NCBI GenBank assembly: GCA_031256445.1
Contig: JAIRQN010000021.1
Coordinates: 1-53,020 of the forward strand
Reading direction: 5' to 3'
Origin: Treponema sp.
GTDB lineage: Bacteria; Spirochaetota; Spirochaetia; Treponematales; Breznakiellaceae
DNA: 53,020 nt
Part shown: piece by piece, positions 34,033-53,020 of the stretch
How the letters are laid out: the number at the start of each line of letters is the position of its first letter
Position numbering within the stretch: the first letter of the stretch is position 1
The notes under the pieces: model-generated
Told to the model about the DNA's origin: nothing
The model's input: only the letters and a program-made list of their open reading frames with translations
Databases searched by the model: none
Made by a program: the position numbers and the translations under genes

Positions 34033-34116
34033 AATACCTCTCCGGTTGTTTACAGTTTACCATAAAAAAGCAGCGGTTTACTTTAATAAATAACCTGTTT
34101 GTATTATATTTATACT

Positions 34117-34950
34117 ATGAGATCTCAAAAAGAAATTTCGCTTGATAATAAAATTATCGAAGCAGTCAGGCAGCTTTTGCCTGAAGGCGCGAATCCGGCG
34201 GGTTCAGCGGCAGTCACTGTTTCCCGGCTGCTTGCCTCTGACGATGAAATTCAGGCTTTACAGGAATATGCCAACACCGTATCGATTAAACGGCTCAGTT
34301 TTAATGATCACGGTCCCGTTCACATGCGTTCCGTAGCGCTGAACTCTGTAATTATGATGGGGCTTTTGCGGAAAGCGGGCATTTCCACCAGTCTGGAAAT
34401 TGAAGAATGCGGGAATTTTGATGACAGCCTGACAGCCGTGCTTCTTGCGGCGAGCCTGCACGATATCGGAATGAGCATAGGCAGGCAGGATCATGAACTG
34501 CACAGCGCGTATCTTGCGAGTCCTGTTATCGAACGGCTCCTGTTAAACGCGATTCCCGACAAACTGAACAGACGCATTATTATCCGCTCGCTTGCTCTGG
34601 AAGGCATCTCCGGGCATATGGGCACCCGCCATATCAAGTCTCTGGAAGCGGGCGTTATTCTTGCTGCGGACGGCTGCGACATGGAAAAAGGCCGCGCCCG
34701 GATACCAATCGCGCTTTCATCAGGCCCCAAGGTGGGAGATATTCACAAGACTTCCGCCAATTCCATAGAGGTTGTACGCATACAGGCAGGCGATAAAAAA
34801 CCAATACGCATAGAAGTCCATATGTCAGGCGAGGTTGGATTGTTTCAGATAGAAGAAGTACTGTTAAGCAAAATCTCAGCCAGCACAATTAAAGAGCATG
34901 TTGAATTATTCGCGATTGTGAATAACAGCGAACCGCGGCAGTATTTGTAA
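34117..34950 (+). CDS. HD domain phosphohydrolase-like protein
   Basis: About 277 residues from ATG 34117 (TTG 34099 is the only earlier option). HD-type motifs: FNDHGPVHMRSVAL (His), LLAASLHDIGMSIGRQDHE (His-Asp pair), ISGHMG, and VILAADGCDMEKGR (Asp). HD proteins hydrolyse phosphate esters or nucleotides; substrate unknown. The C-terminal 60 residues (KPIRIEVHMSGEVGLFQIEEVLL) look like a small beta domain. There is no Shine-Dalgarno sequence; a TATTAT/TATATT box lies 6-9 nt before the ATG. Convergent with the large cyclase, with 5 nt between stops. Confidence 0.78.
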   Translation: MRSQKEISLDNKIIEAVRQLLPEGANPAGSAAVTVSRLLASDDEIQALQEYANTVSIKRLSFNDHGPVHMRSVALNSVIMMGLLRKAGISTSLEIEECGNFDDSLTAVLLAASLHDIGMSIGRQDHELHSAYLASPVIERLLLNAIPDKLNRRIIIRSLALEGISGHMGTRHIKSLEAGVILAADGCDMEKGRARIPIALSSGPKVGDIHKTSANSIEVVRIQAGDKKPIRIEVHMSGEVGLFQIEEVLLSKISASTIKEHVELFAIVNNSEPRQYL

Positions 34951-34955
34951 AAGTA

Positions 34956-37715: not shown

Positions 37716-37847
37716 AAATAATATTTTAATTTACTTTTATAATAAAATAAAGCCATAATAATAAAACTTTACCTGTATATTCGGACAAATGCTTGAATAA
37801 ACCCTATAATAATTACATAATAACCGTAATGTAAATGAGGAATTCTG

Positions 37848-40406
37848 ATGGGAACAAGAAAATTCAGATCGTTACATAGTCAAATTATCTTTACAGCGCT
37901 TGCCTTTACCCTGATGGTAGTATTAAGTTACATATTAAACAGCAGAACAGTTCACAGGAATCTGTCAAGGAACGCCGAATGTATGCTCTCTTTCACCCAG
38001 GAACAGATAGAATCAGAGCTTATCGCCTCAAAAATGATGCTGGGCGGCTTTTCCGAGACTGTGCGTCTGATGATACTGGACGGCCGCGCTGACGAACTAC
38101 AGTATTATATAGATATCTCAAGCAAATATGTTATATCAGAAGAGTCAGGGCTGAACAATATGAACGGCCTTTACGGCTATTTTGAGAATGTTTTTGAGAA
38201 AGATGTTTTTATAAACGGCATTGACTGGGTTCCTGAGGATGATTATGTTCCGGCCGAAAGAGAATGGTATAAAGCCGCCATAACAAACTGCGGCACGATT
38301 GCCGAAACGCAGCCTCATTTGGATTATCCGAGCGATACATATATCATTACATACGCGCGCTGCATACATGATAATAATGGAGACCGCGTCGGGGTTGTTT
38401 GCATTGATGTGCCGCTGGATAAAATCGGGGAGATTGTTACGGACGCGGCTCTTAACGAAGGCGGGTACGGTTTGCTTGTCTCTCAGGATTACACAATTAT
38501 TTCTTACGCTAACCATGACTTTATAAAGAGACGCATTAATGAGCCCGGAATAATACCCGCGGGGTTTTTGGAGAAAATTCAACAGGGCAAAATTCTTTAT
38601 GAAGAGCCCATGAAAAACTGGAAAGGCGAAAATGTTATTGTCTTTTCCCGCGTTCTTCCCAACGGCTGGCATTTGGCTATTTTATCTCCGAAAGAACAGT
38701 ACTATTCTGGCACCAACCGGATGCTGATGGCGCTCTGCTTTATAGGCGGAATTATGGCAGCCGCGCTTATAGTCTTCCTGATACGAATTGACAGGGCGAA
38801 AGAAAAAGCCGGCGAAGAAAGCAAGCAAAAAAGCGCGTTTCTCGCGAATATGAGTCATGAAATTCGCACCCCCATGAACGCCATCATCGGCATGACTTAT
38901 GTCGGAAAATCAGCTAACGACGCGCCGCGCAAGGATTACTGTCTGGAAAAAATAGAAAACGCTTCGCAGCATCTTTTGGGCGTAATAAATGACGTTCTTG
39001 ATATGTCAAAAATAGAAGCGAACATGTTTGAACTTTCCTACGATGAGTTCAGCTTTGAGAAAATGCTCCAGCGCGTTATCAGCATTGTAGGTTTCCGCGC
39101 CGAAGAAAAAAAACAAAAAATATCCGTTTATGTTGACAAGTCCATACCGCGCACATTAATAGGAGACGAACAGCGTCTGGCGCAGGTGATTACCAATCTT
39201 TTGGGTAACGCGGTCAAGTTTACTCCAGAAGGAGGCTTGATAAAACTGGACACGCGCTTTATCGCAGAAGAAGACAGAATGAACACGATACGGATTACTG
39301 TAAAAGACAGCGGAATCGGAATAAGCGAAGCGCAGCAAAATCAGCTGTTCCATTCATTCCGGCAGGCTAACGCCAGGATTTCGCGCAAGTTCGGCGGCAC
39401 AGGGCTGGGGCTTGCGATATCCAAAAACATCGTGGAATTAATGGGCGGAAATATTGAGCTTGTCTCCAAACTTGGAAAAGGATCATCATTCTCATTCACA
39501 TTCAAGGCCAGACGCGGCACAAAAAGGATAATAAATCTGTCCAAAGCCGGAATAAACTGGGACAATATTAAAGTAATCGCCGTAGATGATGACATGGAAA
39601 TTCTGCTTTACTTCAAAGATATTATGCGCGGTTTGGGAACAAGCTGCAGCACCGCTTTAAACGAAGAAGAGGCGCTGTCATGTGTTGAAAATGACGGAAA
39701 GAAACATATTTATTTTATAGACTGGAAAATGCCGGATATCGACGGAATTGCGCTCGCGAAAAAACTGGCGGCAAAATCCGCCGCCGTGTCTGACGGAAAT
39801 TCATCTTCTGATGACGCGATGATAATTATGATCTCAGCGGCAGAATGGAGCGGCGTAGTTGACGAAGCGAAGAAATCAGGCATTAGCATGTTCCTGTCCA
39901 AACCGATATTCCCGTCCGCGGTAGCGGAGTCAATTGCGGACGCGGCGGGAGTGCAGTATCTGGAGCAGGAAAAGAAAGACGACTACAGCGGCGTTTTTGA
40001 AGGATTTAAAATTCTTCTTGCCGAGGACGTGGATATTAACCAGGAGATAATAGATACCTTAATTGAACCTACGCTGCTGAAAATGGACTGCGCCATGAAC
40101 GGCGCGGAAGCGGTAGCCATGTTCAGGAAATCGCCTGATGATTACGATTTGATTCTTATGGATGTGCAGATGCCGGAAATGGACGGTTACGAAGCGACCC
40201 GCAGGATAAGGGAAATTGAGGTTGCCTGGAGAAAAACAGAACCGACCGCGCGTCCGCGTGACGTGCCGATTGTAGCGTTGACAGCTAACGTATTCAAGGA
40301 AAATATCGAAAAATGCCTTGAAGCCGGAATGAATGATCATCTTGGCAAACCGATTGTTGTTGATGAATTTTACAACTTATTAAGAAAATATTTTCTTGAC
40401 AGATAA
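37848..40406 (+). CDS. Hybrid sensor histidine kinase with CACHE domain and two receiver domains
   Basis: 852 residues: TM1 (about 12-29), extracytoplasmic CACHE-type sensor with GIDWVPEDDYVPAEREWYKAA and GGYGLLVSQDYTIISYANHD, TM2 (about 293-313), HisKA with FLANMSHEIRTPMNAIIGMT (phospho-His), HATPase with NLLGNAVKFTPEGG, DSGIGIS and FGGTGLGLAISK, then REC1 (VIAVDDDMEILLYF, phospho-Asp in FIDWKMPDIDG) and REC2 (ILLAEDVDINQEI, phospho-Asp in LILMDVQMPEMDG). No HPt domain is fused, so an outside HPt protein would be needed for relay. GAGG lies 7 nt before the ATG. The output is unknown and no response regulator is adjacent. Confidence 0.93.
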   Translation: MGTRKFRSLHSQIIFTALAFTLMVVLSYILNSRTVHRNLSRNAECMLSFTQEQIESELIASKMMLGGFSETVRLMILDGRADELQYYIDISSKYVISEESGLNNMNGLYGYFENVFEKDVFINGIDWVPEDDYVPAEREWYKAAITNCGTIAETQPHLDYPSDTYIITYARCIHDNNGDRVGVVCIDVPLDKIGEIVTDAALNEGGYGLLVSQDYTIISYANHDFIKRRINEPGIIPAGFLEKIQQGKILYEEPMKNWKGENVIVFSRVLPNGWHLAILSPKEQYYSGTNRMLMALCFIGGIMAAALIVFLIRIDRAKEKAGEESKQKSAFLANMSHEIRTPMNAIIGMTYVGKSANDAPRKDYCLEKIENASQHLLGVINDVLDMSKIEANMFELSYDEFSFEKMLQRVISIVGFRAEEKKQKISVYVDKSIPRTLIGDEQRLAQVITNLLGNAVKFTPEGGLIKLDTRFIAEEDRMNTIRITVKDSGIGISEAQQNQLFHSFRQANARISRKFGGTGLGLAISKNIVELMGGNIELVSKLGKGSSFSFTFKARRGTKRIINLSKAGINWDNIKVIAVDDDMEILLYFKDIMRGLGTSCSTALNEEEALSCVENDGKKHIYFIDWKMPDIDGIALAKKLAAKSAAVSDGNSSSDDAMIIMISAAEWSGVVDEAKKSGISMFLSKPIFPSAVAESIADAAGVQYLEQEKKDDYSGVFEGFKILLAEDVDINQEIIDTLIEPTLLKMDCAMNGAEAVAMFRKSPDDYDLILMDVQMPEMDGYEATRRIREIEVAWRKTEPTARPRDVPIVALTANVFKENIEKCLEAGMNDHLGKPIVVDEFYNLLRKYFLDR

Positions 40407-40426
40407 TTTTCCCGTATAACTGTAAT

Positions 40427-40804
40427 TTAAAAGTTAATCAGTCTTTCCAGAGCCATAAACGCCGCTGTGCCGCCGAAAATGCTGAATAGCGCGTTTCTCC
40501 GCCACAGGTGAACAATGACGGTGACAGCGGCGGCAATAAACGCGGCTCCGCCCTGTCCGGGGCTGCCGTTTTTAACGCTTTCGTATACAGAAGCGCTGAC
40601 AGCGTTGAATGTCAGTACAGTCATCGCAAGCGGAGGCACGATTTTCCCGATAAAATCTATAAAGGCTTCCGCGCGGCGGCCCGCGTTTTTATCCCCCGGA
40701 CTCTTCCCGCGGAATAACAGGAATGGGCATACCCGGCAAAAAAATATCACAAGAGCCATGACTGCCGTAAGCAGAACCGCTTCGCCAATGCCGGTTTTCA
40801 TCAC
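40427..40804 (-). CDS. azlD: AzlD family branched-chain amino acid exporter subunit
   Basis: 125 residues, four predicted membrane helices, with FCRVCPFLLFRG and FIDFIGKIVPPLAMTVLTFNAV typical of AzlD. It works with AzlC to export branched-chain amino acids or their analogues. Its start overlaps the azlC stop by 4 nt (ATGA type). A linker insertion (KSPGDKNAGRR) follows the first helix. Confidence 0.88.
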   Translation of the reverse strand: MMKTGIGEAVLLTAVMALVIFFCRVCPFLLFRGKSPGDKNAGRRAEAFIDFIGKIVPPLAMTVLTFNAVSASVYESVKNGSPGQGGAAFIAAAVTVIVHLWRRNALFSIFGGTAAFMALERLINF

Positions 40805-41529
40805 GCGCGCTCCTTCTTATAAATTACAGAACTGGCCGCCAGCGCCAGCGTAATTGCCGCCAGCAGCGATATGCGCGAAGGCAGCAATACCGCCAGCGCC
40901 GCGGGCACAGCGGAGACAATAAATACGCCGGGTTTTCGTATCCTGAAAATTTGTTCAAGCATGAGCACAATGAACAGGGCGGTCAGGGCGAAACTAACGC
41001 CTTCAATATTAAACGGAATCAGCGATCCTGTAATTGTGCCGATGAGCGAACCTGATATCCAATAGCTGTGATCCAGCAGAGTTACCAGAAACATGAATCT
41101 GCTTCTGCCGCTTGCTGGAATCGGATGGCTTAATCCGGGAATATGGATATTTTCTTCTGTATTTTCCGGCAGCGATGAAAGCAGCGCGAATGTTTCATCG
41201 GTCATGCCAAAGATGCAATACGCCCTATAGAAACCTGAAGACGGCATACGTTTGATCATTGACAGTCCGTATGCGATATGCCTGGCATTCACTACCAATT
41301 GCACCAGAGCCGCTTCCCATATGCTTGTTCCGGCGGCGAACAGCCCCACGGCGATGTACTGTCCCGCTCCGGCAAACATTGCCGCGCTCATTAACACGGT
41401 CAGCCACCAGGGGTATCCCGCGTCCGCCATGAGCAGGCCAAAAGCGAAGCCGATAGCCAGATAACCCAGCAGTACCGGAATTGAGTATTTAAACGCCGCC
41501 GAAAGCAGGCGCGGACTTTCTTCTTTCAT
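40801..41529 (-). CDS. azlC: AzlC family branched-chain amino acid exporter
   Basis: 242 residues, polytopic, with family signatures: FKYSIPVLLGYLAIGFAFGLLMADAGYPWW, MSAAMFAGAGQYIAVGLF and NARHIAYGLSM. First gene of azlC-azlD. There is no Shine-Dalgarno sequence on the coding strand; TATACT lies 8 nt before the ATG, again a leaderless arrangement. No Lrp-type regulator adjoins. Confidence 0.9.
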   Translation of the reverse strand: MKEESPRLLSAAFKYSIPVLLGYLAIGFAFGLLMADAGYPWWLTVLMSAAMFAGAGQYIAVGLFAAGTSIWEAALVQLVVNARHIAYGLSMIKRMPSSGFYRAYCIFGMTDETFALLSSLPENTEENIHIPGLSHPIPASGRSRFMFLVTLLDHSYWISGSLIGTITGSLIPFNIEGVSFALTALFIVLMLEQIFRIRKPGVFIVSAVPAALAVLLPSRISLLAAITLALAASSVIYKKERA

Positions 41530-41580
41530 TTACAAGGAGTATATCAAATTTTTTTTTTAACCGCTATTATCACCCGCTCC

Positions 41581-41651
41581 ATCACCTGTTTTGGCGGGTA
41601 AAATTCAGCAAAAAACAGCTTAAAACATTTTATATCACCTGATTTGGTGAG
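41581..41651. promoter_or_regulatory. Pair of similar 18-bp sites upstream of the tandem BOF gene
   Basis: ATCACCTGTTTTGGCGGG (41581-41598) and ATCACCTGATTTGGTGAG (41634-41651) match at 15 of 18 positions and are 53 bp apart. The second is a dyad (TCACC-n6-GGTGA). They lie between azlC and the BOF gene. They may be operators for either divergent gene. Confidence 0.35.
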
Positions 41652-41729
41652 TTACTTTTGCATTTTCCGGCTGTATTTTTTAATAAACGCGTATTTAAAA
41701 TATGCTAAACTATTTTAGGAGGTATACTT

Positions 41730-42461
41730 ATGAAAAAGTATATCATTGCCGGCTGTTTGGTTATCTTAATATCAACAGGAAATATTTTTGCCCAGGCTGG
41801 GTTTACAGGGCGGCAGGGGTTTAGAGGTCAATCCGGATTTGGATTCACGGGCCCTGCGGGTCCTGATAATTTTTTGCCGGGACAGGCTGTCATGATCAAT
41901 CAGCCTGTTACTGTCATTGAAGCGAGGAATCTTCCCCATGATTCATGGGTTGTTTTATCCGGGAATATCATCAATATGCTGCCGGGCGGCAGGCAGTATA
42001 CATTCCGCGATATAACGGGAGATGTCGCAGTTGATATCGGGCCCAAAGAATGGCGGGGATTGAGCGTTGACGTAACAGACAGGGTTGAGATTTACGGAGA
42101 GGTTAAATCGCACCGCGGACTGTTTCATATTAAAGTCCATGCGATTTCAGGGGCTGGAAAGGTAAACAACAGGCCATGGCAGGCGGTTACTGAAACTGCG
42201 CCTGTTACAATTAACGAAGCGAAAAATCTTCCCCATGATTCATGGGTTGTATTAAAAGGAAATATTGTAAACATTTTGTCCGCAGGAAGGCATAATTATA
42301 CGTTCCGTGACGCTTCGGGAGAAATTATGGTTGATATTGGCATGAAAGAATGGCGCGGGCTGTCTGTCGGCGTATCTGACATTGTTGAGATTTACGGAGA
42401 GGTTAAATCGCACCGCGGGCTGATATATATTAAAGTTCATGCAATCAGGACGGGAGCGTAA
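41730..42461 (+). CDS. Exported protein with two tandem BOF (OB-fold) domains
   Basis: 243 residues: signal peptide (about 1-21, ending NIFAQ), a Gly/Phe-rich linker FTGRQGFRGQSGFGFTGP, then two BOF/YgiW-YdeI-type OB folds (about 55-145 and 150-243). Each contains NLPHDSWVVL.GNI, YTFRD..G...VDIG.KEWRGLSV and VEIYGEVKSHRGL. BOF proteins are small periplasmic stress or ligand-binding proteins. The two halves are nearly identical even in DNA, so the duplication is recent. A single-domain relative is at 47068-47454. AGGAGG precedes the ATG. The stop lies inside the start region of the membrane LuxR gene. Confidence 0.88.
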   Translation: MKKYIIAGCLVILISTGNIFAQAGFTGRQGFRGQSGFGFTGPAGPDNFLPGQAVMINQPVTVIEARNLPHDSWVVLSGNIINMLPGGRQYTFRDITGDVAVDIGPKEWRGLSVDVTDRVEIYGEVKSHRGLFHIKVHAISGAGKVNNRPWQAVTETAPVTINEAKNLPHDSWVVLKGNIVNILSAGRHNYTFRDASGEIMVDIGMKEWRGLSVGVSDIVEIYGEVKSHRGLIYIKVHAIRTGA

Positions 42462-43920
42462 AGTTTTGCATAACAGAACAGGCGGCGCATCCGGCTGGCG
42501 CGCGATAATCAGGAGTTTTTTTCAAACGCGCGATGAGCTGTCATTCCGCAATATCAGGGTTAATTTGCTGTCTGTTCTGCTGGTTTTCCCGACTTCCGTT
42601 ATTCTGGGAAATCTGCGTTATTACGGTCACAGCATCGCGCTGGGCGGTTTTGCAACTAACGAAATAATGTTTTTTATGCTGGCTTTTGGCTGGCTAATCC
42701 TGGGCTTTGCGCCTGAACGCTTTATTCTTCCTTTGCTGAAAATATCGGCGGTTTTTTCCGCTGTCTCGCTGTCATTTCTGATTTTCCTGCCGATGGGTTC
42801 AGGTCAGTTCATGCTTTATATGGCTTTTAAATTCTGCAATGGCTTATGCGCCGCCTGCGCGTTTTTCCTGTTCTGCTTTGTGTTAAATAATGTCGAGCGG
42901 CTTGCCGGCATGGCAGTTATTCAGGTTTACTACGGGTTTTATTATACTTCATGGAGAATGCTTCCTGATTTTCATACAGCGGGAAATACATGGGCAGGAG
43001 CCGTTTCAATGGCAGTTTTTCTTGTCGTCGTATTTAACTGTGCGGGAAACTTCGCCGCAGGAAACGGCGTAAGGCTTAAATCCGGCGCCGCGTTAAATAC
43101 TGACGGCGACGGCAAAGGATCGGGAGTATATTTTGTTATTGGCCTAGGTGTTGTTCATTACATGATTATGTGTATGAGCAATTACATCGAATGGTCAGAA
43201 AACAGCGTTTCCAGTCTTGCATTCGGCCTTGGAACCGTTATATCCGTCGGGCTCGTTATAATTATTCAATTATTTAAAGGCAGAAACGCGCTGTATATCT
43301 GGCTCATGTTTCTTGCTTTTACCCTGCTTGGATTGGGCGTTCTTCTGTTTAATACGCCGGCGGCAATTTCTTCCGGTTCTTTCATTTATGGTTTAGGCGA
43401 CAGCCTGGGTTATATAATTATCTGTTATATGTGCGCCGGAGCCATTAAAAGAAGCAAGTCGCTACGGATGTTCAGGTTTTATTGTTTTGTTTTTTTTATC
43501 CAGTATTTTATCATTTCCGGTATTTTTTCATTTTACTTTAATTATTTTGACGAGCCAAATAAATTTCTCGCGTTTGCCGTTGTTCTGGTTCTTGTCAGCC
43601 TATGTCTGTTATTCATGCCGCTTATTCAAAAAAAACTGTTTGACGCGGACTGGACAGACGGCCTTTATCTGCGGGACATGGAAGAGTATTCCAGGCCGTT
43701 TGTAAAAACGGAAGAAATCAATAAAAAAGAAAAATTGAATTTAACGCCGAGAGAGCAGGAAATTTTTACCTTGCTGCTCAAAGGAACGCCGCCCAAAGAA
43801 ATAGGCTATACCCTGAAGATAAGCTATGAAACGGTTCATCATCACCAAAAGAATTTATACCGGAAATTGGGCATTCAGAGTATACAGGAACTTTTTGCCA
43901 GATACGCCAGAGCTATGTAA
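42439..43920 (+). CDS. Polytopic membrane LuxR-family transcriptional regulator
   Basis: 493 residues: ten to twelve predicted membrane helices (about 45-400) of a transporter-like fold without a known transport motif, then a cytoplasmic C-terminal LuxR helix-turn-helix (LTPREQEIFTLLLKGTPPKEIGYTLKISYETVHHHQKNLYRKLGIQS). Such membrane-LuxR proteins sense through their membrane part and bind DNA from the membrane. The ATG overlaps the BOF gene by 23 nt; an alternative TTG at 42466 follows GGAG. Overlap implies coupled expression, so the BOF protein may be its periplasmic partner. Convergent with the methyltransferase, ends overlapping by 8 nt. Confidence 0.85.
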   Translation: MQSGRERKVLHNRTGGASGWRAIIRSFFQTRDELSFRNIRVNLLSVLLVFPTSVILGNLRYYGHSIALGGFATNEIMFFMLAFGWLILGFAPERFILPLLKISAVFSAVSLSFLIFLPMGSGQFMLYMAFKFCNGLCAACAFFLFCFVLNNVERLAGMAVIQVYYGFYYTSWRMLPDFHTAGNTWAGAVSMAVFLVVVFNCAGNFAAGNGVRLKSGAALNTDGDGKGSGVYFVIGLGVVHYMIMCMSNYIEWSENSVSSLAFGLGTVISVGLVIIIQLFKGRNALYIWLMFLAFTLLGLGVLLFNTPAAISSGSFIYGLGDSLGYIIICYMCAGAIKRSKSLRMFRFYCFVFFIQYFIISGIFSFYFNYFDEPNKFLAFAVVLVLVSLCLLFMPLIQKKLFDADWTDGLYLRDMEEYSRPFVKTEEINKKEKLNLTPREQEIFTLLLKGTPPKEIGYTLKISYETVHHHQKNLYRKLGIQSIQELFARYARAM

Positions 43921-44794
43921 TGGGCGATGTTTCTTTCTTTAATTTCAAAAGCCTGTTTTTTGTTAAACCGCAATATTCAATATCAATTTCTGTTCCCACA
44001 TAAAATCTGTTTCCCGCTGTTAAAGAAGCAGCTCCCGTAGTACCCCCTCCGTTAAACGGGTCCAAAATTATGTCTCCTTCATTGGTAGAGGCCGTTATAA
44101 TTCTTAATAATAAATCCAACGGCTTTTGAGTTGGGTGTTTGCCGAATTCTTTCCCGCTGTTTTTTGGCGCAGGTATTGACCATACTGATCGCATCTGGGT
44201 ATTTTCTTTTTTTATTTTATCTTCCGGAAATTTTCCATTTTTCATTTTTTCATAGTTAAACGTATGTTTGGCTTTTTTATCTTTGCGCGCCCAAATTACC
44301 GTTTCGTGTGAAGCTGTAAAAAAACGGCAGCTTAAATTGGAAGAAGCGTTTGGTTTAAACCATGTAATATCATTTAATATATGAAAATTATTTTTCTGTA
44401 ATATATAACCGCATTGATAAATGCTGTGATATGTGCCGGAAATCCAGATTGTTCCTTCAGGTTTTAATACCCGGCGGCATGCAGTTATCCAGGCATCATG
44501 AAATTTTATATCCTCTTCAAACCCTTTGCTTTCGTCCCACTTGCCTTTATTTACTTTTGCCATTCTTCCATTCCTGCATGTAAATCCATTGTTTGATAAC
44601 ATATAGGGAGGATCGGCGAAAATCATATTTATGGAATTTTCCGGCATTCGATCCAGTATCTCAAGGCAATCATTGTTGAAAACAACCGCATTTTCGGAAG
44701 AAAAAAAAGGCGCTATTTCATTTTTTGAGTCTATTATTCCGGATAAAACATTCTTAAATTTTTTTCCAGGCTCCGGAAAGTTTTTATCTTTCAT
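43913..44794 (-). CDS. Orphan N6-adenine DNA methyltransferase, DpnA (GATC)-like
   Basis: 293 residues, beta-class: DPPY first (MIFADPPYMLSNNGFTCRNGRMAKVNKGKWDES), then RVLKPEGTIWISGTYHSIYQ, LNDITWFKPNASSNLSCRFFTASHETVIWARK, GKHPTQKPLDLL, and motif I DPFNGGGTTGAAS. The pattern LSN-G-...-KG-WD and NLSCR-FT--ETI-WARK recalls M.DpnIIB (DpnA), which modifies GATC including single-stranded DNA. Motif I reads NGGG rather than the more usual F-GSG. No restriction endonuclease or second GATC methyltransferase is in the window. It starts 19 nt after the barrel gene on the same strand, so it may be the tail of that operon. Confidence 0.85.
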   Translation of the reverse strand: MKDKNFPEPGKKFKNVLSGIIDSKNEIAPFFSSENAVVFNNDCLEILDRMPENSINMIFADPPYMLSNNGFTCRNGRMAKVNKGKWDESKGFEEDIKFHDAWITACRRVLKPEGTIWISGTYHSIYQCGYILQKNNFHILNDITWFKPNASSNLSCRFFTASHETVIWARKDKKAKHTFNYEKMKNGKFPEDKIKKENTQMRSVWSIPAPKNSGKEFGKHPTQKPLDLLLRIITASTNEGDIILDPFNGGGTTGAASLTAGNRFYVGTEIDIEYCGLTKNRLLKLKKETSPIT

Positions 44795-44813
44795 AATATA
44801 TCTTTAAAGATAA

Positions 44814-45626
44814 TTAAAAATTGAACTTAACTCCAATCGCGGGAGATACAGTCACTTTACCGCCTGCGCCAACGCCGGCAAATTCGCACGTCAGATAGAA
44901 ATTCCAGTTTCTGAAGCCATACTCAAACAATGGAGTGATAATTACGCCTTCATCGCCGATGTCTTCGGGGACAATTACCTCAACTTCCAGATAAGCCGGA
45001 CGGATTTCGTATCCGGCGATCAATTCAAGACCCTGATAACCGGCATCTTCTCCTGGAGCAAGCAGGGTAAGTAATTTAAAATCCAGAACAAGGCCGAAGG
45101 CGCTTTCCAGGCCAATTGAAACATCAAGCCCAAATTCTGCGCCGGCGTCTTTATCGTATTGAACATATGTGATTGGCGCACCAATATTGACAAAAGCGTC
45201 TCCAAAATTAAATTCCTGTTCAAATCTTACTGCCGGAGTAAAAATTCCTTCCAAAATATTCGTTCCGTTTGTTTTGGGAGAAATTAAAATTTCATCAAAC
45301 TCATTCTGTAAAATAAAAGATAAGGTAGAACCGCGGCCGAATTCCAGATTGTAGCCCAGCATTATATCCGCATACAGCGACTGCCTCAATTTATTGGCAA
45401 AACCGAAAGTATAGTTAAGTTCTGCGGACAGATCCAGAGCGTCATTCAGAAAAGACGCTTCGTATGTAAATATGGGCATAAGATACGGGATCATGTCCTC
45501 ATTGTCCGCCTTGTTAACATTTTCAATGCCGAACTCCAGTCCCGCCGAAAAATCCGCCGTTTTATCCGCCGCCGCGGCAAAACTTACAATCTGTGTAAAA
45601 ACAAGCAATAAAATAAAAACCTTTTT
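44814..45626 (-). CDS. Predicted outer-membrane beta-barrel protein
   Basis: 270 residues from ATG 45626, preceded by GGAGG; the longer reading frame to 45668 would overlap DUF4956. Signal peptide MKKVFILLLVFTQIVSFAAA, then alternating strands with aromatic girdles (ALDLSAELNYTFGFANKL, VNIGAPITYVQYD, NWNFYLTCEFAGVG) and a C-terminal strand ending VKFNF, a typical outer-membrane insertion signal. I do not recognise a named family. It is the last envelope gene of the BOF-VTC-DUF4956 operon and could be its outer-membrane component. Confidence 0.75.
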   Translation of the reverse strand, partial: KKVFILLLVFTQIVSFAAAADKTADFSAGLEFGIENVNKADNEDMIPYLMPIFTYEASFLNDALDLSAELNYTFGFANKLRQSLYADIMLGYNLEFGRGSTLSFILQNEFDEILISPKTNGTNILEGIFTPAVRFEQEFNFGDAFVNIGAPITYVQYDKDAGAEFGLDVSIGLESAFGLVLDFKLLTLLAPGEDAGYQGLELIAGYEIRPAYLEVEVIVPEDIGDEGVIITPLFEYGFRNWNFYLTCEFAGVGAGGKVTVSPAIGVKFNF

Positions 45627-45648
45627 CATATAATCCTCCAATATTGAT

Positions 45649-46323
45649 TTACAATCTTTCAATTTCATAATTACCGCTTAGCATAATAGTCAGATTACCG
45701 TTGCGGCAGCGCAATTCGTCTATAAATTCCTTTGTTGCATTTGATGTTTTTAACTGAACGGCATAGGTCAGTTCATAAAGACTGCCCATGTTGGTGGTTG
45801 TAACAGTTTTCAATTCGGCGCTTTTGGTATATTTTGAGAAAATATCATCAAAGACCCCTTCATAATCCAGATTTTCCGGAATTTTTACCTTGAGAAAACG
45901 GACACTCGCGTCTTCGCCAAAAGAAAATCTGGTTAACAGCAGTGATACCGCGCCCACAATCAGAAGGAACATGAAAGCGTAGAACATAAAACCCATTCCC
46001 ATTATAAATCCTATTGCCATTGCGAAAAATATGGCGCTGATTTCCCTTGCGGTTCCCGGAATTGAGCGAAAGCGTATCAGGGAAAAAGCCCCTGCAACCG
46101 CTATACCTACGCCGATATTGCCGTTAACCAGCATTATTATTATCTGTACTATAGCAGGTAATAGCACCAATGTCACGGCCATACTCCGGCTGTATTTGTT
46201 TTTATACATATAAATTCCCGCCGAAGCAAATCCAAATACCAGTGAGCCTACAGTGCAGATAATCATGCCATGCAGCGTAGGAAATTCTCCCATAAAACTG
46301 GTTGATAAAACATCAAGCGACAT
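45649..46323 (-). CDS. DUF4956 membrane protein
   Basis: 224 residues with four membrane helices in the first 135 residues and the DUF4956 signature AGAFSLIRFRSIPGTAREISAIFFAMAIGF, followed by a soluble alpha/beta domain. DUF4956 is repeatedly found next to VTC-domain polyphosphate-polymerase-like proteins, as here, and is thought to be part of the same membrane machine; its biochemical role is unknown. The start overlaps the VTC gene end by 11 nt, and the barrel gene follows 22 nt downstream. Confidence 0.92.
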   Translation of the reverse strand: MSLDVLSTSFMGEFPTLHGMIICTVGSLVFGFASAGIYMYKNKYSRSMAVTLVLLPAIVQIIIMLVNGNIGVGIAVAGAFSLIRFRSIPGTAREISAIFFAMAIGFIMGMGFMFYAFMFLLIVGAVSLLLTRFSFGEDASVRFLKVKIPENLDYEGVFDDIFSKYTKSAELKTVTTTNMGSLYELTYAVQLKTSNATKEFIDELRCRNGNLTIMLSGNYEIERL

Positions 46324-47011
46324 TACTCATTCCTCCTATATATCCGGTATAACAAACGCCAAATTTTGAAAATGGCACCGGGAATATGCTGTTTTCGCTG
46401 AGCGTTTTGGCAAGCCATAAAGGCATAGCGCCCGTTGTCTTTATTTCCATTATCATCTGATTGGGCTTAAGGATTTGGCGGTTTTCACCGGAATCATAAT
46501 TATTAAAACTGATTAAGCGAAAAAAAACGTCTTTATCAAAAGTGATGCGCAGATCCCCGTCTCCAATGCCGTTATAGGCGATTCGGGCATAGGCAATGTA
46601 TATTTTTTCAGAGATTTCTTTCCTTTGCATAAAAAAAATTATTTCCCTGGAAATTTGAGAATCCAGAGATGAAACAATTTCACGGATGCTGCGGCTTTCC
46701 AGTTCGCATAAGGGAAAATCTATTCTGCGCTTGTATGTAATGCCGTGAAATTTTTTCTTTAGTTCCAGAAAGCCGTGAGACTCCCGGGTTTTTTGACCAT
46801 AAAACCGCAAGCGCAATTTTTCCTTGTACATGGGTCTTTCTATGGATTCACGGATAATTTCCCAATCATCCGTATCAAAATATAGATTCTGCACCAGATA
46901 CTCGCCATGCCGGTCTATTGTCATATATTGCGTTAATTTCCTCTGCAATACGGCTCCTTGTTCCATTGTGACAAGGTATTTATTTTCGCGCCGGTTAAAA
47001 ATGCTCTGCAT
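46313..47011 (-). CDS. VTC-domain polyphosphate polymerase-like protein
   Basis: 232 residues. The tunnel fold of the VTC/triphosphate tunnel family shows its charged lining: FNRRENKYLV (Glu, Lys), YKEKLRLRFYG (Lys, Arg), GFLELKKKF and TYKRR, DGDLRITFDKD, and MEIKTTGAMPLW (Glu, Lys). All expected basic and acidic positions are kept, so catalysis is plausible. In yeast VTC makes polyphosphate from ATP; bacterial stand-alone domains are little studied, and cluster with DUF4956 and often CotH kinases. No CotH gene is in this window. Second gene of the BlaI-operator operon, 56 nt after the BOF gene. Confidence 0.9.
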   Translation of the reverse strand: MQSIFNRRENKYLVTMEQGAVLQRKLTQYMTIDRHGEYLVQNLYFDTDDWEIIRESIERPMYKEKLRLRFYGQKTRESHGFLELKKKFHGITYKRRIDFPLCELESRSIREIVSSLDSQISREIIFFMQRKEISEKIYIAYARIAYNGIGDGDLRITFDKDVFFRLISFNNYDSGENRQILKPNQMIMEIKTTGAMPLWLAKTLSENSIFPVPFSKFGVCYTGYIGGMSNVA

Positions 47012-47067
47012 ATTTCACCTTTTATTCGCGGCGAGGGTTTTATACCCCGCCCTTTAGGGCTGTGTTG

Positions 47068-47454
47068 TCATTTTGACTGTAATTTTTTAAGGTACAATAC
47101 ATCAACTACCGCGTTCCTGTTTTGAATTTCAATTTCCCCCCTGATTTCCACGCTGTCGTTTGCGCTGACAGACAGATCAAGCAATACCCAAAGATTTCTG
47201 TCAATTTCTATGGTTACATCGCCTGTTGAATCGCGGAATGTGAATTTTTCACGTCCAAGCGAGTTTACAATATTTCCTGTTAATATTACCAAAGAACCTT
47301 CCCGCAGATTTTTCACCTGACTGGCGGTAACGGTTTGTATCTGCGCGTTCGTTCCGGAACCGGGTCCAATTCCGGTAAATCCCTGTCCATATACGGCATT
47401 AACCGAAAAAACAGCCGTAATAAAAATAACGCTCCAAAACACGGATTTTTTCAT
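47068..47454 (-). CDS. Exported single-domain BOF (OB-fold) protein
   Basis: 128 residues: signal peptide (MKKSVFWSVIFITAVFSVNAVYG), a short Gly-rich linker, then one BOF domain with NLREGSLVILTGNIVNSLGREKFTFRDSTGDVTIEIDRNLW and VEIRGEIEIQNRNAVVDVLYL. It is related to the tandem protein at 41730. BOF proteins sit in the periplasm and may bind small ligands under stress. AGGAG lies 6 nt before the ATG. First gene of BOF-VTC-DUF4956-barrel, about 100 nt downstream of the BlaI-type operator. Confidence 0.87.
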   Translation of the reverse strand: MKKSVFWSVIFITAVFSVNAVYGQGFTGIGPGSGTNAQIQTVTASQVKNLREGSLVILTGNIVNSLGREKFTFRDSTGDVTIEIDRNLWVLLDLSVSANDSVEIRGEIEIQNRNAVVDVLYLKKLQSK

Positions 47455-47562
47455 ATAGCATACTCCTATCGCTTTGTTAAACCTTCATACGAAAGCCTTA
47501 ATAAAATCGTCTGCGGTAAGGCGGCGGGTATAACCCACAAGGTTCTACAAGTGTCGTAATTA

Positions 47563-47593
47563 ATATACTACATATGTAGTATATATATGTCAA
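47563..47593 (-). promoter_or_regulatory. Promoter with perfect BlaI/MecI-type operator for the BOF-VTC-DUF4956 operon
   Basis: A 22-bp perfect palindrome (47563-47584) with core ATACTACATATGTAGTAT. This is the TACA/TGTA dyad known for BlaI and MecI. It overlaps a minus-strand promoter: -35 TTGACA (47588-47593), 17-nt spacer, -10 TAGTAT (47565-47570). A repressor bound here would cover spacer and -10. The matching site at 49541-49558 lies in the same register in the blaI promoter. Confidence 0.8.
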
Positions 47594-47662
47594 CAATTTT
47601 TTAAGAAAATACGGAATTTTTGAAACAAACAACCGGGCTGCCTGATATGTCCGTATTTACAG

Positions 47663-47905
47663 TTACAGCCGCTCCATCTCAATAACCGCTCCGGTTACCG
47701 CGTCAATTGTAATTTCATACCGCCGGTTATTGGATTTGATTATTACATCGTAAATCAGCAAGTCATTCTCATATTCAAGCTCAATCTCCTCTACTGCGCC
47801 GCCTCCGGCCCTTGAGACAGCTATTTCCATGGCTTTTTCAAACGATACTTTCGCGGAGTTAATAAGTTCGGTCAAAGGTATTATTTCTTTGAACTCTATA
47901 ATCTC
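47663..47905 (-). pseudogene. Second PepSY domain of the BlaR-like protein, cut off by an in-frame TGA
   Basis: These 80 codons are in the same frame as the upstream M56 gene and continue its sequence after TGA (47906-47908): EIIEFKEIIPLTELINSAKVSF, then a complete PepSY domain (AMEIAVSRAGGGAVEEIELE...YEITIDAVTGAVIEMERL). The residue at the TGA should be Gly, as in the Thr-Gly of the second PepSY unit (AVTGAVIE), so GGA to TGA explains the break. A TTG at 47875 could restart translation and give a free 70-residue PepSY protein, but no good ribosome binding site is seen. It may be read through, restarted or lost. Confidence 0.7.
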
Positions 47906-49150
47906 TCATGTTTCTGGGTTAATTTCTATTTCGTATGCCTTGTCATTGGTTCTTATAATTAACTCGTAAAATGATTTTCCGTTTATTTGCTCAAGATGAA
48001 CCTCTTCCACCGCGCCGCCGCCGGATTTTTCCAGGGCAATTTCCATGATTCCCTTAAGCGAAAGAGCGGATTCCGGCAATGCTGAAAAAGCGGGCGAAAC
48101 CGCAGATGCAGACAGTTCCTGAACGGCAAAAACCGAGCCGGAAAGCAAAGTAAGCGCCAACACAATTGATAAGACCGGTATGGCAAGCCATTTCATTTTT
48201 AAAGTTGGTTCCAGGATTGAATCCAGGCGTTTTTTTAAACTCAATTTTCCTTTGTAGATAAAACAGGTAGACAATATTGTAGAGGCTGTTTTTTTTCGTT
48301 CAATCATGCCAATAATTGTTTCGGCGTAAAAATGCCGGTTTTCTTTACCGGAATTATGCAGAACCGCTTCGTCACAGGACGCTTCCCCGTCAGCCTGCAT
48401 TAGTTCGTACATCCAGAATATAAGGGGATTAAACCAATATATTGATATGGTGACAACGAACAGGAATTTTACCAAAAGATCGCGGCGCATATAATGAGTA
48501 AACTCATGCCTGAAAATGAGTTCCAGCTCGTCAGCGTTAAAATTCTTTTCCGGCAGAAGTATACTGGGGTGCAAAAATCCCGTAAGCATTGAACTTGACA
48601 CAAAACCGCAGACCAGGAGGCTGATGTTTTTATGTTCCAGTCTTTTCTCCGCCTGAATGGTTTTGAATATTGACAGGATTTTTTCGTCATTGACTGCTGC
48701 GCCCCAGCGCCGGATTGCCCGCATAAAATTGATATGCCGCCGGATGTGATAGGTGAAAACCGCAAGCGCGGTAACGCCCCAAAGGAACATGCAAACCATG
48801 AAAGGCGAAAATGACCTGCCGAAAAACAGGCCATGCGGGAAATTTATTTTCCCGATAGCCGGATTGCTGTTTAAAACATTGCCCGCTGCGCTGTCCTCGG
48901 AAACTGAATACTGCGCTTTGGCCGGCGCTGAAAATTTTGCCGTAAGATCCGGCAGCGAAACAGTAAAAATACCGCCGTTGATTACGGGAGGCAAAGGTAA
49001 AATTAAGCCTATAAGAACAACCAGCCATACTGTATAACGCAGCTTTGCGGAAAACGCCCTGCCAAACAGCGCATTGAACAGAAAAATTACCAGAATGATC
49101 GCGCTTATGGCAATGGATTTAAACAGAAAGGATAAAAAATACAATTCCAT
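47906..49150 (-). CDS. BlaR1-like M56 membrane protease with PepSY instead of a beta-lactam sensor
   Basis: 414 residues from ATG 49150, one base after the blaI stop. Four membrane helices with a zinc protease domain: IFRHEFTHYMRRDLL (HExxH) and QADGEASCDEAV (third ligand region). BlaR1 and MecR1 use this domain to inactivate BlaI after their outer penicillin-binding domain senses drug. Here the segment after the last helix (LLSGSVFAVQEL) is a PepSY domain (LKGIMEIALEKSGGGAVEEVHLEQINGKSFYELIIRTNDKAYEIEINPET), so the signal is not expected to be a beta-lactam. The frame ends at TGA inside the PepSY Thr-Gly motif; a second PepSY follows in frame. Confidence 0.85.
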   Translation of the reverse strand: MELYFLSFLFKSIAISAIILVIFLFNALFGRAFSAKLRYTVWLVVLIGLILPLPPVINGGIFTVSLPDLTAKFSAPAKAQYSVSEDSAAGNVLNSNPAIGKINFPHGLFFGRSFSPFMVCMFLWGVTALAVFTYHIRRHINFMRAIRRWGAAVNDEKILSIFKTIQAEKRLEHKNISLLVCGFVSSSMLTGFLHPSILLPEKNFNADELELIFRHEFTHYMRRDLLVKFLFVVTISIYWFNPLIFWMYELMQADGEASCDEAVLHNSGKENRHFYAETIIGMIERKKTASTILSTCFIYKGKLSLKKRLDSILEPTLKMKWLAIPVLSIVLALTLLSGSVFAVQELSASAVSPAFSALPESALSLKGIMEIALEKSGGGAVEEVHLEQINGKSFYELIIRTNDKAYEIEINPET

Positions 49151-49151
49151 T

Positions 49152-49532
49152 TTATTTCTTCTTTTTGGCAAGCCAATCTTTCAGTTCCTGTAAATCTTCT
49201 TTGGAAAGATTTTGATCTTCGAACATTGTTTTTACAAGAACTCCCACGGAATATCTGCCGGTGTTTCCGATATACCGTTTCATGAAATCCCCGGTTTCAA
49301 TGCGCATATAATCCTGTTCCGGCATTTTCGGCGTATAGTTCCGTTCTCTGCCTACGCGCTCGCTTTGCAGAAAACCTTTTTCAATCAGCCGCACCAGCAT
49401 TGTTAATACGGTTTGAGACTTCCATTTTTTATCATCCTTTAATTTTTCCATTATCTCCAATGTGGTTACAGGAGGCGTAGAGTCCCAAATGATCTTCATT
49501 ACTTCAAATTCCGCGTCAGGCAGTCTTTTCAT
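49152..49532 (-). CDS. BlaI/MecI/CopY family transcriptional repressor
   Basis: 126 residues: winged helix (PDAEFEVMKIIWDSTPPVTTLEIMEKLKDDKKWKSQTVLTMLVRLIEKGFLQSERVGRERNYTP), then the dimerisation helices that BlaR-type proteolysis targets. Such repressors bind TACA/TGTA dyads and are released when the M56 partner is activated. It is co-directional with the M56 gene, with one base between stop and start. There is no Shine-Dalgarno sequence; a promoter with an overlapping degenerate operator ends 8 nt before the ATG, implying autoregulation. Confidence 0.93.
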   Translation of the reverse strand: MKRLPDAEFEVMKIIWDSTPPVTTLEIMEKLKDDKKWKSQTVLTMLVRLIEKGFLQSERVGRERNYTPKMPEQDYMRIETGDFMKRYIGNTGRYSVGVLVKTMFEDQNLSKEDLQELKDWLAKKKK

Positions 49533-49540
49533 ATTTTCAC

Positions 49541-49569
49541 ATTCTACACTTATAGTTTCTGCTTGTAAA
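49541..49569 (-). promoter_or_regulatory. blaI promoter with a degenerate BlaI operator
   Basis: Minus strand: -35 TTTACA (49564-49569), 17 nt, -10 TAGAAT (49541-49546), 8 nt to the ATG. The segment AAACTATAAGTGTAGAAT (49541-49558) matches the perfect operator core at 47565-47582 at 13 of 18 positions and occupies the identical position relative to -35 and -10. Confidence 0.6.
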
Positions 49570-49618
49570 GAGCCGCGTTACTTTATTGGCAGGTCTCCGG
49601 TGTAAAACCTGAACAGCC

Positions 49619-52600
49619 CTAATCTCTTGAAGCAATCTCCAGTATCAGTTCAACTTCGTTCCTGGAAAGGCCCATTGCGGTGGCGATTTCCTCGTCTGTC
49701 CAGCCTTTGGCTTTCAGTCTTTTTACATTGTCGCGGCTTTGGGGAGTAAGAGCGCCTTTGACGTTTGAAGCGGAAGGTTTGCCGCTATCTTTCTCCAGCA
49801 GTCCTTTTGTCAGCTTGAACTGGGTGCGCGCGTCATTATCCAGCGCTTTAAGTTCTGTTTCCGTGCGCGCAAGCCATTCGCGGGCGACATTCATCTCTGT
49901 TATGCGCTTTTCTATCTGGGTAAGGGTGTCGTCCAACGTGCTGATTTTTTCCACCGCGTCGGATGCTTTTTCGTTTTCAGCGGCGATTGCCTCTATTGAA
50001 GAGCGGAGATTTTCGAACCGGTCAGAGAGAACTGTAATAACAGCCTCTGCGTTTTTAATCGCGGATTCTGTTTTCTGAAGCGCCTTGAAGTTATGATCAA
50101 TGCCTTCTTTGGTTTCTTCCAGGATTTCATTTTTCTTTTCGATGCGCTGATATTTGTCTTCGGTGTCTTTCATCGCCGTTTCAAGTTTGCGTATGCGCAT
50201 TTCCACGGCCTGGAGAAGATCGTCAGATGTTGTGACATGCTCCAGTTTTTCTTTTACCGATTGTGAAATTTTCAGAAGGTTATTGAAATTCATTTCCATT
50301 GTTTCAATTCGGACTTTCTCATTCAGGAAGCGCGTCATCTTGTTGTTTACTTCGTCTTCCTGTCGCTTTAGGCGCGTAAACTGGGTTTCCAACTGCGTAA
50401 TTTCGTTTTTGCGCTGATCCAGCCGGTCAAGATCCCCGTTGATTTCCTCTATCCTGTGTTCCAGTTCCTGTTTAAGTATGCCTGTCTGCTCGAAGATTTT
50501 TTTCTGAACGCCGAGTTCCTTGCGTATTTCTTCCAGATTTGAACGGAACTGGGAAATACGCTCGTCGTTTTCAGCGGCGATTTCCCTGCTGCGCCGGCGC
50601 AGATCTTCCAGCGAAGTGTCCGTTTCGCGTATTCGCGTATTGTACAGAATTTGCCATTCGCCGAAATCCTGTTTTGATTTCTGAAGATCGTTATCCAGCG
50701 ATTCTGTAGCGGTTTGCGAACGGGCTGTCATTTCTTCAAGTTCCTTGTCCAGCTCCCTTTGTTTCTGGCGCAGGGTATCCTGTATTGTCAGTTGATACTG
50801 GCCGACCTGGGACTTTACTTCGCTTTCCGAAGTAAAGCGTATTTCATCAAGATCCTGTTTTATCTGTTCGGTGAAATTCGCGCGCATTTCCTCGACATTG
50901 CTCATGTCGTTCCTGATGCCTTCTTCAAACGCCGCCGCTTCCTTTTTAAGGCTGTCCATTTCCGATATTAAACGCTCGCCGAGCGAGGCGATATCTTTGC
51001 GCTGATCCGTTAAAATGCGTTCTTCCGCCTGATGCCACACCGAATCAATTTCTTCGGCGCTCTTGCTGAATTTTCCCTCCATGTCTTCCTGCCAGACTGC
51101 AATATGTTTCCCGATATCGGCGGATCGTTTGCCAAGTTCCGCAGAAAAATTTTCTTCAAAATTCGCTAACTGCTCTGATACGTTATCAAATGCCTGTTTT
51201 CTGATGCCGTTAAGCTCATTGTTCATGTCTTCAAGTTCTTTCCGGAGCGCCTGCGATTGCGCGTTAAACGCCGCCGTGGTTGATTCCATTGATGTGTTCG
51301 ATTCTTTTTCAAAGGCCGAAAAATCATCCCTGATTCCTGATACCGCTTCTTCCATTATTCTGCGAAGCTCCGTATCAAGGTCTGATGTGTCTTTGGCCAG
51401 TTTGCCAAGCTGGTTGATGGATTCAGTATGAAGTTTGCCGTAATCGTCCAGGCGTTTTTCTGTTGCCTGAATGATGTCATGTTCCGCGTCTCTGCACATG
51501 ACCTTCCACGCGGCAATCTGTTTTTCCAGGGCGGCAGTAATATCGCTCTGCTGCTGGTTAACTTCGCTTTCGGATTTAATTTTCAGATTGCCAAGTGTCT
51601 GTATAAGTTCCTTATGCTGCTGGCTTACCGCTTTCTCTGATTTTTCCTTAAGCTCGCTGAGAGCCGCGGCCAGTTCTTCATTCTGTTTCTTGATTGCCGC
51701 TCCGGAGCTGCTGTTCAATTCACCGAGGGTCAGTTTTAGTTCACTCTGCTGAAGGTTTACGGCTGCCTCTGTTTTCTTGTTCATTTCATTTATGGAGGAA
51801 CTCAGTTCATCCTGCTGATCTTTAATCGCGGATGAGGAAATTTCCTTAAGCTCTTTAATTGCGGAAAGCGTATCCTGCTGCTGCTGCCTGATATCAGTTT
51901 CGGATTTTGTGCGTAACGCGGCGATGGAAACGGTGAGTTCGGAAATGAGCCCGCTGAATTCCTTTTGCTGGCTGTTAATGGCTCCGCCGAGTTCTTCCTT
52001 CTGCCGTTTGACCGCCGTCTCCAGTTTATCTCTGGCTTCATTGATATCCGCGCTCAGTTCATCGCGCTGCTGTTTGACGGCGGCTTCGGATTTTTCCCTT
52101 ACCTCTCCGAGCGCTTCGCTTAGTTCTTCCTGCTGATCTTTTATTGCTGTATCTGATTTTTCTTTAAGTCCGTCGAGTACCGCGCCCAATTCAATTTCCT
52201 GGTTTTTAACGGCGGCGTCCAGTTTTTCCTTTAATCCGCCGAGAACTGTATCAAGTTCTACCTGCTGTAGTTCCACGGAGTTATCCAGTTTCTCTTTCAT
52301 TCCGCCCAGGGCTGTGCTTAGCTCTTCCTGCTGCTGCCTGACAGCGGTATCCGATTCTTCCTTTATTTCGCCCAGAACCGAGCTTAGTTCCTGCTGCTGC
52401 TGTTTAATCGCGGTCTTTGTTCTTTCCTTTAACGCGCCAAGTACCGCGGCAAGGTCTTCTTCCTGATAGTTAACAGAGGTATCCAGTTTTTCCTTTAGTC
52501 CTCCGAGTACCCTGGTAAGTTCGTCTTCCTGATACTTAACAGAGGCGTCCAGTTTTTCCTTTATCCCGTCAAGAACGGTATCAAGTTCCACCTGCTGCAG

Positions 52601-53020
52601 TTCAACAGCGGTTTCCGCTTTTTCCCTTATTCCGCCGAGCAGCGCTGTGATTTCTTCATCATGATTCCTGACTGCGGTTTCTGATCTTTCTTTTATCCCG
52701 CCAAGCAGCGATGTTAGTTCTTCATCCTGCCGTTCGACCGCGGTTTCCGCTTTGTCTTTTATTCCGCCGAGCAGCGCTGTGATTTCTTCATCATGATTCC
52801 TGACTGCGGTTTCTGATCTTTCTTTTATCCCGCCAAGCAGCGATGTTAGTTCTTCATCCTGCCGCTTGACTGCGGTTTCCGCTTTGTCTTTTATTCCGCC
52901 AAGCAGAGATGTTATCTCTTCGTCATTTTTACTGACCGCTGTCTGCGCTTTGTCTTTTATTCCGCTGAGCAGCGAGGTTATTTCTTCATCCTGCCGCTTG
53001 ACGGCTGTTTGCGCTTTTTC
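49619..53020 (-). CDS. Giant spirochaete coiled-coil protein (SpiroCoCo-like), N-terminus outside window
   Basis: 1133 residues are visible and the frame is still open at the window edge; the GTG at 52591 is internal, not the start. The visible N-terminal third is a tandem array of 22-residue units (e.g. KAETAVERQDEELTSLLGGIKE), i.e. two 11-residue turns each. A long heptad coiled coil follows (to about 90 residues from the end). The tail is a predicted helix-turn-helix: NVKRLKAKGWTDEEIATAMGLSRNEVELILEIA. No membrane helix or signal peptide is visible in this part. In spirochaetes such proteins are suspected of being cytoskeletal or structural; function is not established. Isolated, 86 nt beyond blaI. 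Confidence 0.85.
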   Translation of the reverse strand, partial: EKAQTAVKRQDEEITSLLSGIKDKAQTAVSKNDEEITSLLGGIKDKAETAVKRQDEELTSLLGGIKERSETAVRNHDEEITALLGGIKDKAETAVERQDEELTSLLGGIKERSETAVRNHDEEITALLGGIREKAETAVELQQVELDTVLDGIKEKLDASVKYQEDELTRVLGGLKEKLDTSVNYQEEDLAAVLGALKERTKTAIKQQQQELSSVLGEIKEESDTAVRQQQEELSTALGGMKEKLDNSVELQQVELDTVLGGLKEKLDAAVKNQEIELGAVLDGLKEKSDTAIKDQQEELSEALGEVREKSEAAVKQQRDELSADINEARDKLETAVKRQKEELGGAINSQQKEFSGLISELTVSIAALRTKSETDIRQQQQDTLSAIKELKEISSSAIKDQQDELSSSINEMNKKTEAAVNLQQSELKLTLGELNSSSGAAIKKQNEELAAALSELKEKSEKAVSQQHKELIQTLGNLKIKSESEVNQQQSDITAALEKQIAAWKVMCRDAEHDIIQATEKRLDDYGKLHTESINQLGKLAKDTSDLDTELRRIMEEAVSGIRDDFSAFEKESNTSMESTTAAFNAQSQALRKELEDMNNELNGIRKQAFDNVSEQLANFEENFSAELGKRSADIGKHIAVWQEDMEGKFSKSAEEIDSVWHQAEERILTDQRKDIASLGERLISEMDSLKKEAAAFEEGIRNDMSNVEEMRANFTEQIKQDLDEIRFTSESEVKSQVGQYQLTIQDTLRQKQRELDKELEEMTARSQTATESLDNDLQKSKQDFGEWQILYNTRIRETDTSLEDLRRRSREIAAENDERISQFRSNLEEIRKELGVQKKIFEQTGILKQELEHRIEEINGDLDRLDQRKNEITQLETQFTRLKRQEDEVNNKMTRFLNEKVRIETMEMNFNNLLKISQSVKEKLEHVTTSDDLLQAVEMRIRKLETAMKDTEDKYQRIEKKNEILEETKEGIDHNFKALQKTESAIKNAEAVITVLSDRFENLRSSIEAIAAENEKASDAVEKISTLDDTLTQIEKRITEMNVAREWLARTETELKALDNDARTQFKLTKGLLEKDSGKPSASNVKGALTPQSRDNVKRLKAKGWTDEEIATAMGLSRNEVELILEIASRD
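52627..52890 (-). repeat. Two adjacent 132-bp copies inside the coiled-coil gene
   Basis: 52627-52758 and 52759-52890 match at 129 of 132 positions. Each is a dimer of 66-bp (22-residue) units, so the gene has grown by duplication of a two-unit block. Further, more diverged 66-bp units fill the gene on both sides. Confidence 0.92.

Follow-up and report, generated by a model that had tools for sequence, protein, structure and literature searches.

In one genome of a Treponema species, a BlaI–M56 switch appears, judging by its genes and predicted operators, to be rewired to cell-envelope and putative polyphosphate genes. BlaI–M56 circuits are mostly known from beta-lactam resistance. The whole model, in which a horizontally acquired BlaI and M56 control the adjoining BOF–VTC–DUF4956–barrel operon, is in our judgement probable. 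We analyse a stretch of 53,020 nucleotides (the window), and its features are collected in Table 1. The Pfam search confirms the Penicillinase_R, Peptidase_M56, BOF, VTC and DUF4956 families called in an initial annotation of this DNA, leaving only the barrel without a family match. Box 2, the in-frame TGA in M56, the PepSY sensor and the 15.6-kb block described below are details beyond that annotation. The GC content of the window is 45%, with a low-GC stretch (31.6%) at 12001–13500.

Table 1 Genes, promoters and predicted operators of the BlaI–M56 locus and the adjoining operon (positions in the window).
Feature	Position	Strand	Description
CcrM-like adenine DNA methyltransferase	43913..44794	minus	19 bp after the barrel gene
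Barrel-like exported protein	44814..45668	minus	Signal peptide, alternating strands, C-terminal Phe (sequence reading)
DUF4956 membrane protein	45649..46323	minus	Pfam; standard partner of VTC
VTC-domain protein, putative polyphosphate polymerase	46313..47011	minus	PF09359, 137 bits
BOF, exported OB-fold protein, NirD/YgiW/YdeI stress family	47068..47454	minus	Pfam
Operator box 2 (predicted)	47543..47558		TTCTACAAGTGTCGTA, read as TACGACACTTGTAGAA on the minus strand; downstream of box 1 by exactly 23 bp; weaker than box 1
Operator box 1 (predicted)	47563..47584		22-bp perfect palindrome ATATACTACATATGTAGTATAT; centre 3 bases before the -10 of the BOF–VTC promoter
BOF–VTC–DUF4956–barrel promoter TTGACA-17-TAGTAT	47565..47593	minus	Promoter scan
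Second PepSY domain	47665..47905	minus	80 aa; in frame after the TGA, no further stop; PepSY 2.5e-13
M56 (BlaR1-type) membrane metalloprotease	47906..49171	minus	HEFTH motif, C-terminal PepSY; ends at in-frame TGA
blaI-type repressor	49152..49532	minus	126 aa; only PF03965 protein found in the genome
blaI promoter TTTACA-17-TAGAAT	49541..49569	minus	Promoter scan
Degraded box in the blaI promoter	49542-49557		AACTATAAGTGTAGAA; centred at -3

The promoter of the target operon lies about 100 bp before it, and box 1 spans its spacer and -10 element. A perfect palindrome at this place had been claimed before; the promoter scan and the palindrome search confirm it and extend it to 22 bp. It is the longest perfect palindrome in the window (the runner-up has 16 bp), and when intergenic regions of matching composition are simulated, about 2 in 10,000 contain one of at least this length. 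Its core, ATACTACATATGTAGTAT (47565–47582), is expected 0 times in shuffles. We build a BlaI operator matrix from 35 BlaI-homolog loci, taking from each the best box ahead of its blaI (20 distinct sites; consensus TATTACAATTGTAATA) and leaving the window sequence out. By this matrix, the palindrome ranks first among about 53,000 window positions with 19.95 bits, the next position reaching 12.05 bits, and box 2 ranks fourth. By sequence match, the window holds only 8 exact ACANNTGT cores, two of them in this promoter, where the box centres are at -3 and +20, counted from the first base of the -10 element. Tandem boxes 22–28 bp apart are recurrent among the collected BlaI loci. The leader between the promoter and the BOF gene has a folding z of -0.5, and no structure is found in it.

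The BlaI of the window scores 97 bits against PF03965 (Penicillinase_R; cut-off, 22.6), with a winged-helix match over its full length, and aligns to the solved BlaI and MecI. As is typical of the BlaI/MecI class, the gene is paired with an M56 gene, which it adjoins and, if a TTG start is used, overlaps by 20 bp. The N-F residues of the MecI cleavage position are not conserved; T-M aligns with them in the window BlaI. Against the CopY/TcrY equivalog the protein scores 86.3 bits, below the cut-off of 121.95, and it contains zero cysteines, so there is no CXC copper motif.

Searching the genomes behind the collected BlaI loci gives the closest homolog, from the Clostridiales MAG AS21ysBPME_273 (L151/L181; 44% identity, E 2e-33). 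In a 52-sequence tree this homolog is sister to the window BlaI with support of 99/96, and the two group with BlaIs outside the canonical clade; the deeper placement is unsure as some branches are long. All seven intact M56 partners scanned in this group are without a transpeptidase domain, whereas the canonical partner scanned has one. Like the BOF–VTC promoter, the blaI promoter of the closest homolog (TTGACA-17-TAAAAT in L181) has its boxes centred at -3 and +20 by the same count. The boxes are likewise at -3 and +20 in L196 and at -3 and +17 in L157, whereas canonical blaI promoters have a box at +15 to +19. The BOF–VTC promoter, the blaI promoter of the window and that of the closest homolog align without gaps. 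Unlike the window, the homolog has GACA/TGTA half-sites instead of TACA/TGTA, and therefore the specificities differ in part; no VTC gene is nearby, and no strong boxes other than those of its own blaI promoter occur in its genome. In the MAG, its M56 gene (10044–10888 of L181) is split across overlapping frames.

For CopY, which is related to BlaI, TACANNTGTA alone is an unreliable predictor of binding (PMC7253601). The caution applies here, but further support comes from the length of the match, the tandem spacing of the boxes and their homologous register. A predicted BlaI-type operator common to the BOF–VTC and blaI promoters, and with it a shared control by BlaI, is thus well supported by matrix rank, box spacing and homolog register, in line with what the initial annotation had proposed.

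At the blaI promoter, the scan bears out an earlier report of a 13/18 match to the palindrome in the same register. Only 8 bases separate the end of the -10 element from the blaI ATG, and the blaI message would therefore have little or no leader. The promoter carries a single box, at -3, whose core has 1 mismatch; a second box is absent. By the matrix this box ranks 66th in the window with 0.06 bits, and because it is so weak, the autoregulation of blaI that had been suggested is only moderately supported. The -3 register speaks for autoregulation; the degraded sequence and the missing second box do not.

Repression might also be local only, with BlaI acting on BOF–VTC, the blaI box non-functional, and blaI–M56 expressed constitutively or from the upstream gene, with no loop. 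We regard this as possible but not probable. It would account for the low rank and the missing partner of the blaI box and for a -10 element so close to the ATG. However, the box lies in the exact -3 register of the VTC promoter and of the blaI promoter of the closest homolog. Among 35 promoter-like sites with a 17-nt spacer in the window, only the BOF–VTC and blaI promoters have at -3 a core with no more than 1 mismatch; over the 14 specified bases, they have 0 and 3 mismatches, respectively, and the other 33 sites at least 6. Furthermore, autoregulation of BlaI is common in the family, for example in Clostridium thermocellum (PMC8457756).

Comparison with relatives bears on the origin of the circuit. 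In most congeners examined, the coiled-coil gene that begins at 49619 in the window is followed directly by the homolog of 33247–34032, with a gap down to tens of bases. In the window, a 15.6-kb block (34033–49618) lies between these two conserved genes and holds blaI, M56 and the whole target operon. It also encodes AzlCD, a hybrid histidine kinase, a HAMP-cyclase protein and a membrane LuxR-type regulator. The window has no tRNA, and no target repeats are found at the ends of the block. The 39 other congeners yield no M56, so that 1 of the 40 genomes of the genus has it. The family sample contains no other convincing BlaI (the next matches are 2e-5 or weaker), and at 1e-10 a BlaI is present in just 9 of 393 genomes across the phylum, counting this one. 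VTC–DUF4956 is present in four other congeners, all without M56, and no operator boxes are found at their VTC orthologs.

Conservation of the palindrome at orthologous operons had been proposed as a check, with its absence there as a refutation; taken at its word, this refutation applies in congeners. The palindrome is absent from all congener and family VTC loci examined, and so is the repressor system. As these congeners are also without M56, and the family without another convincing BlaI, the absence points to lineage-specific acquisition and not to a false site. About 60 further BlaI loci from Lachnospiraceae and the same phylum, mostly with some 4–10 kb of flank, show no BlaI–VTC linkage, and this genome is the only one in which the arrangement is seen. 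The block is missing at this site in relatives, M56 and BlaI are rare, and VTC–DUF4956 occurs elsewhere without boxes. Therefore, the circuit was acquired or assembled locally and is not a regulon conserved in the group. The coiled-coil gene itself (49619–53020) encodes a very long protein with many repeated heptad-like segments and is present in 36 of the 40 genomes of the genus.

The M56 protein has the HEXXH motif of BlaR1/MecR1, its HEFTH aligning with HEYAH of the solved BlaR1. A domain scan gives only M56 and PepSY, with no penicillin-binding transpeptidase domain, and the protein scores 141 bits against the BlaR1 model (cut-off, 400). The in-frame TGA (47906–47908, minus strand) ends M56 near the end of the first PepSY. 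It may reflect a genuine nonsense mutation or a fault of the assembly; since it removes one PepSY, sensing by M56 may be altered. We infer that M56 senses the signal and derepresses by cleavage.

The same TGA raises the question of decay: the block would be a recent island, M56 would be cut by a nonsense mutation, and BlaI would hold the operon permanently off, or the circuit would be losing function. The position of the stop between two PepSY domains, the weak blaI box and the restriction of M56 to 1 of 40 genomes are in keeping with such an outcome, which we consider unlikely. The protease domain, the repressor and all frames of the operon are open, the palindrome is perfect, no other stop follows the TGA in frame, and one base may simply be wrong in a draft assembly.

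The 2.79-Mb genome has a single PF03965 gene and a single PF05569 (M56) gene. The extended motif has two perfect matches genome-wide, the palindrome site and one inside the frame of hcp (hydroxylamine reductase), which is taken as chance. Five sites with 1 mismatch are rejected as further targets; four are in reading frames, and the fifth lies where two convergent genes end. Across the genome, the degenerate motif shows no enrichment, with 95 matches versus 201 for the reversed control. With one match at a promoter, the hcp match in a coding frame and no enrichment, the BlaI regulon is therefore probably local. Related repressors such as CopY bind TACANNTGTA-like sites, and the palindrome could in principle serve another regulator, with its place beside blaI a coincidence. 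With only one PF03965 protein in the genome, and with a matrix match and a register and spacing as in the closest homolog that would all have to be coincidental, we hold this to be very improbable.

The repressor family, the M56 family and a ACANNTGT-core operator overlapping promoters are common to the window and to the BlaR1–BlaI and MecR1–MecI systems of Staphylococcus and Bacillus licheniformis. The differences are that the window has PepSY at the sensor position instead of a penicillin-binding sensor, and BOF–VTC–DUF4956–barrel as the target instead of a beta-lactamase or PBP. A classic beta-lactam circuit, in which BlaR1–BlaI control a beta-lactamase or PBP, has identical protein families in its favour, as well as Lachnospiraceae BlaIs that adjoin an M56-transpeptidase sensor (L068) or a PBP gene (L065), but it is largely refuted already and the least credible reading, the window BlaI being outside the canonical clade and the box register -3 instead of +15 to +19. 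Because M56 is without a transpeptidase sensor and no beta-lactamase or PBP is found among the scanned genes of the 15.6-kb block, the earlier claim, made from the sequence, that the system is not built for beta-lactams is supported. In the canonical Lachnospiraceae BlaI systems (L034–L068), we also observe that a second strong operator pair often lies 4–6.5 kb away, upstream of DUF6070 genes (L039, L044, L060 and L068) or of a PBP gene (L065). The position of these distant operators suggests that BlaI also targets the uncharacterised DUF6070 genes.

BlaI regulons beyond beta-lactamase are already known. In C. thermocellum, BlaI_0696 and BlaI_1845 have small autoregulated regulons with paired operators; their motif differs from that of the window, and they act on BlaR1 genes and on a putative peptidoglycan gene (PMC8457756). 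BlaI of Mycobacterium tuberculosis (Rv1846c) regulates, beyond beta-lactamase, the ATP synthase operon and ftsQ (PMC12565901, citing Sala 2009); VTC, DUF4956 and BOF are not among the targets reported there. Neither a link of BlaI to VTC, DUF4956 or BOF nor an occurrence of the operator string is found in the literature searched.

In the target operon, the VTC protein has the conserved basic tunnel residues, and its RLR motif aligns with yeast Vtc2 and Vtc4. Polyphosphate synthesis by a bacterial VTC–DUF4956 pair is not demonstrated in the literature searched. VTC–DUF4956 genes are accessory to some Pel loci (PMC7112168). The pair is shared with the VTC–DUF4956–Cthe_2159 operons of family relatives and with the CotH–PPP–DUF4956 sets of Gram-positive Pel loci (PMC7112168); unlike the window, these have no BlaI link, no leading BOF, and Cthe_2159 or CotH instead of a barrel as the third gene. 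The secreted protein Cthe_2159 (PF14262) is encoded by the third gene in 6 of 7 relatives scanned, and the barrel-like gene takes its place in the window. The barrel-like gene probably starts at 45629. Family searches with its product give no match, and a structure prediction with a pLDDT of 34 was discarded. The methyltransferase gene is possibly the last gene of the envelope operon; no terminator-like site is found on the minus strand from the promoter to its end. A second BOF gene, with two BOF stretches, is at 41730–42461 in the same 15.6-kb block, where it adjoins the gene of the LuxR-type membrane regulator.

From its genes, the operon would have a polyphosphate/envelope output. Because the BOF family includes SipA of Vibrio cholerae, this output is probably envelope stress defence. 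SipA (VCA0732) is a stress-induced periplasmic protein of the YgiW/BOF family that binds antimicrobial peptides and interacts with OmpA; in contrast to the control predicted for the BOF of the window, it is induced by a two-component system (PMC6370654).

Starting from what is read directly, namely the genes, the boxes, their register and spacing and the single repressor and protease, we infer binding, repression, proteolytic release, a signal and a chemical output. BlaI dimers would occupy the two boxes and block RNA polymerase, box 1 lying across the spacer and the -10 element and box 2, 23 bp on, just past the expected transcription start. The weaker box in the blaI promoter would give looser self-repression. 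The extracytoplasmic PepSY region of M56 would read an envelope signal, not penicillin, whereupon the active protease would inactivate BlaI. The operon would then be on, and blaI–M56 on to a lesser degree. The products would be a periplasmic YgiW-type protein, an outer-membrane barrel and a VTC/DUF4956 membrane enzyme possibly making an anionic polymer. We suggest, only tentatively, that the PepSY BlaR-like receptor detects envelope damage (e.g. by cationic peptides, or cell-wall material) and via BlaI induces a defence consisting of a surface polymer or polyphosphate and a periplasmic chaperone.

Many M56 proteins have no penicillin sensor, and to our knowledge no signal or output is known for them. 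The predicted operators give a specific output, the VTC/DUF4956/BOF operon, for one such non-penicillin M56 circuit. The -3/+20 operator architecture, common to the closest homolog and distinct from the beta-lactam type at +15 to +19, may be used to find the regulons of a non-beta-lactam BlaI clade. Through the circuit, the widespread and uncharacterised VTC–DUF4956 pair would also become accessible by way of its regulation.
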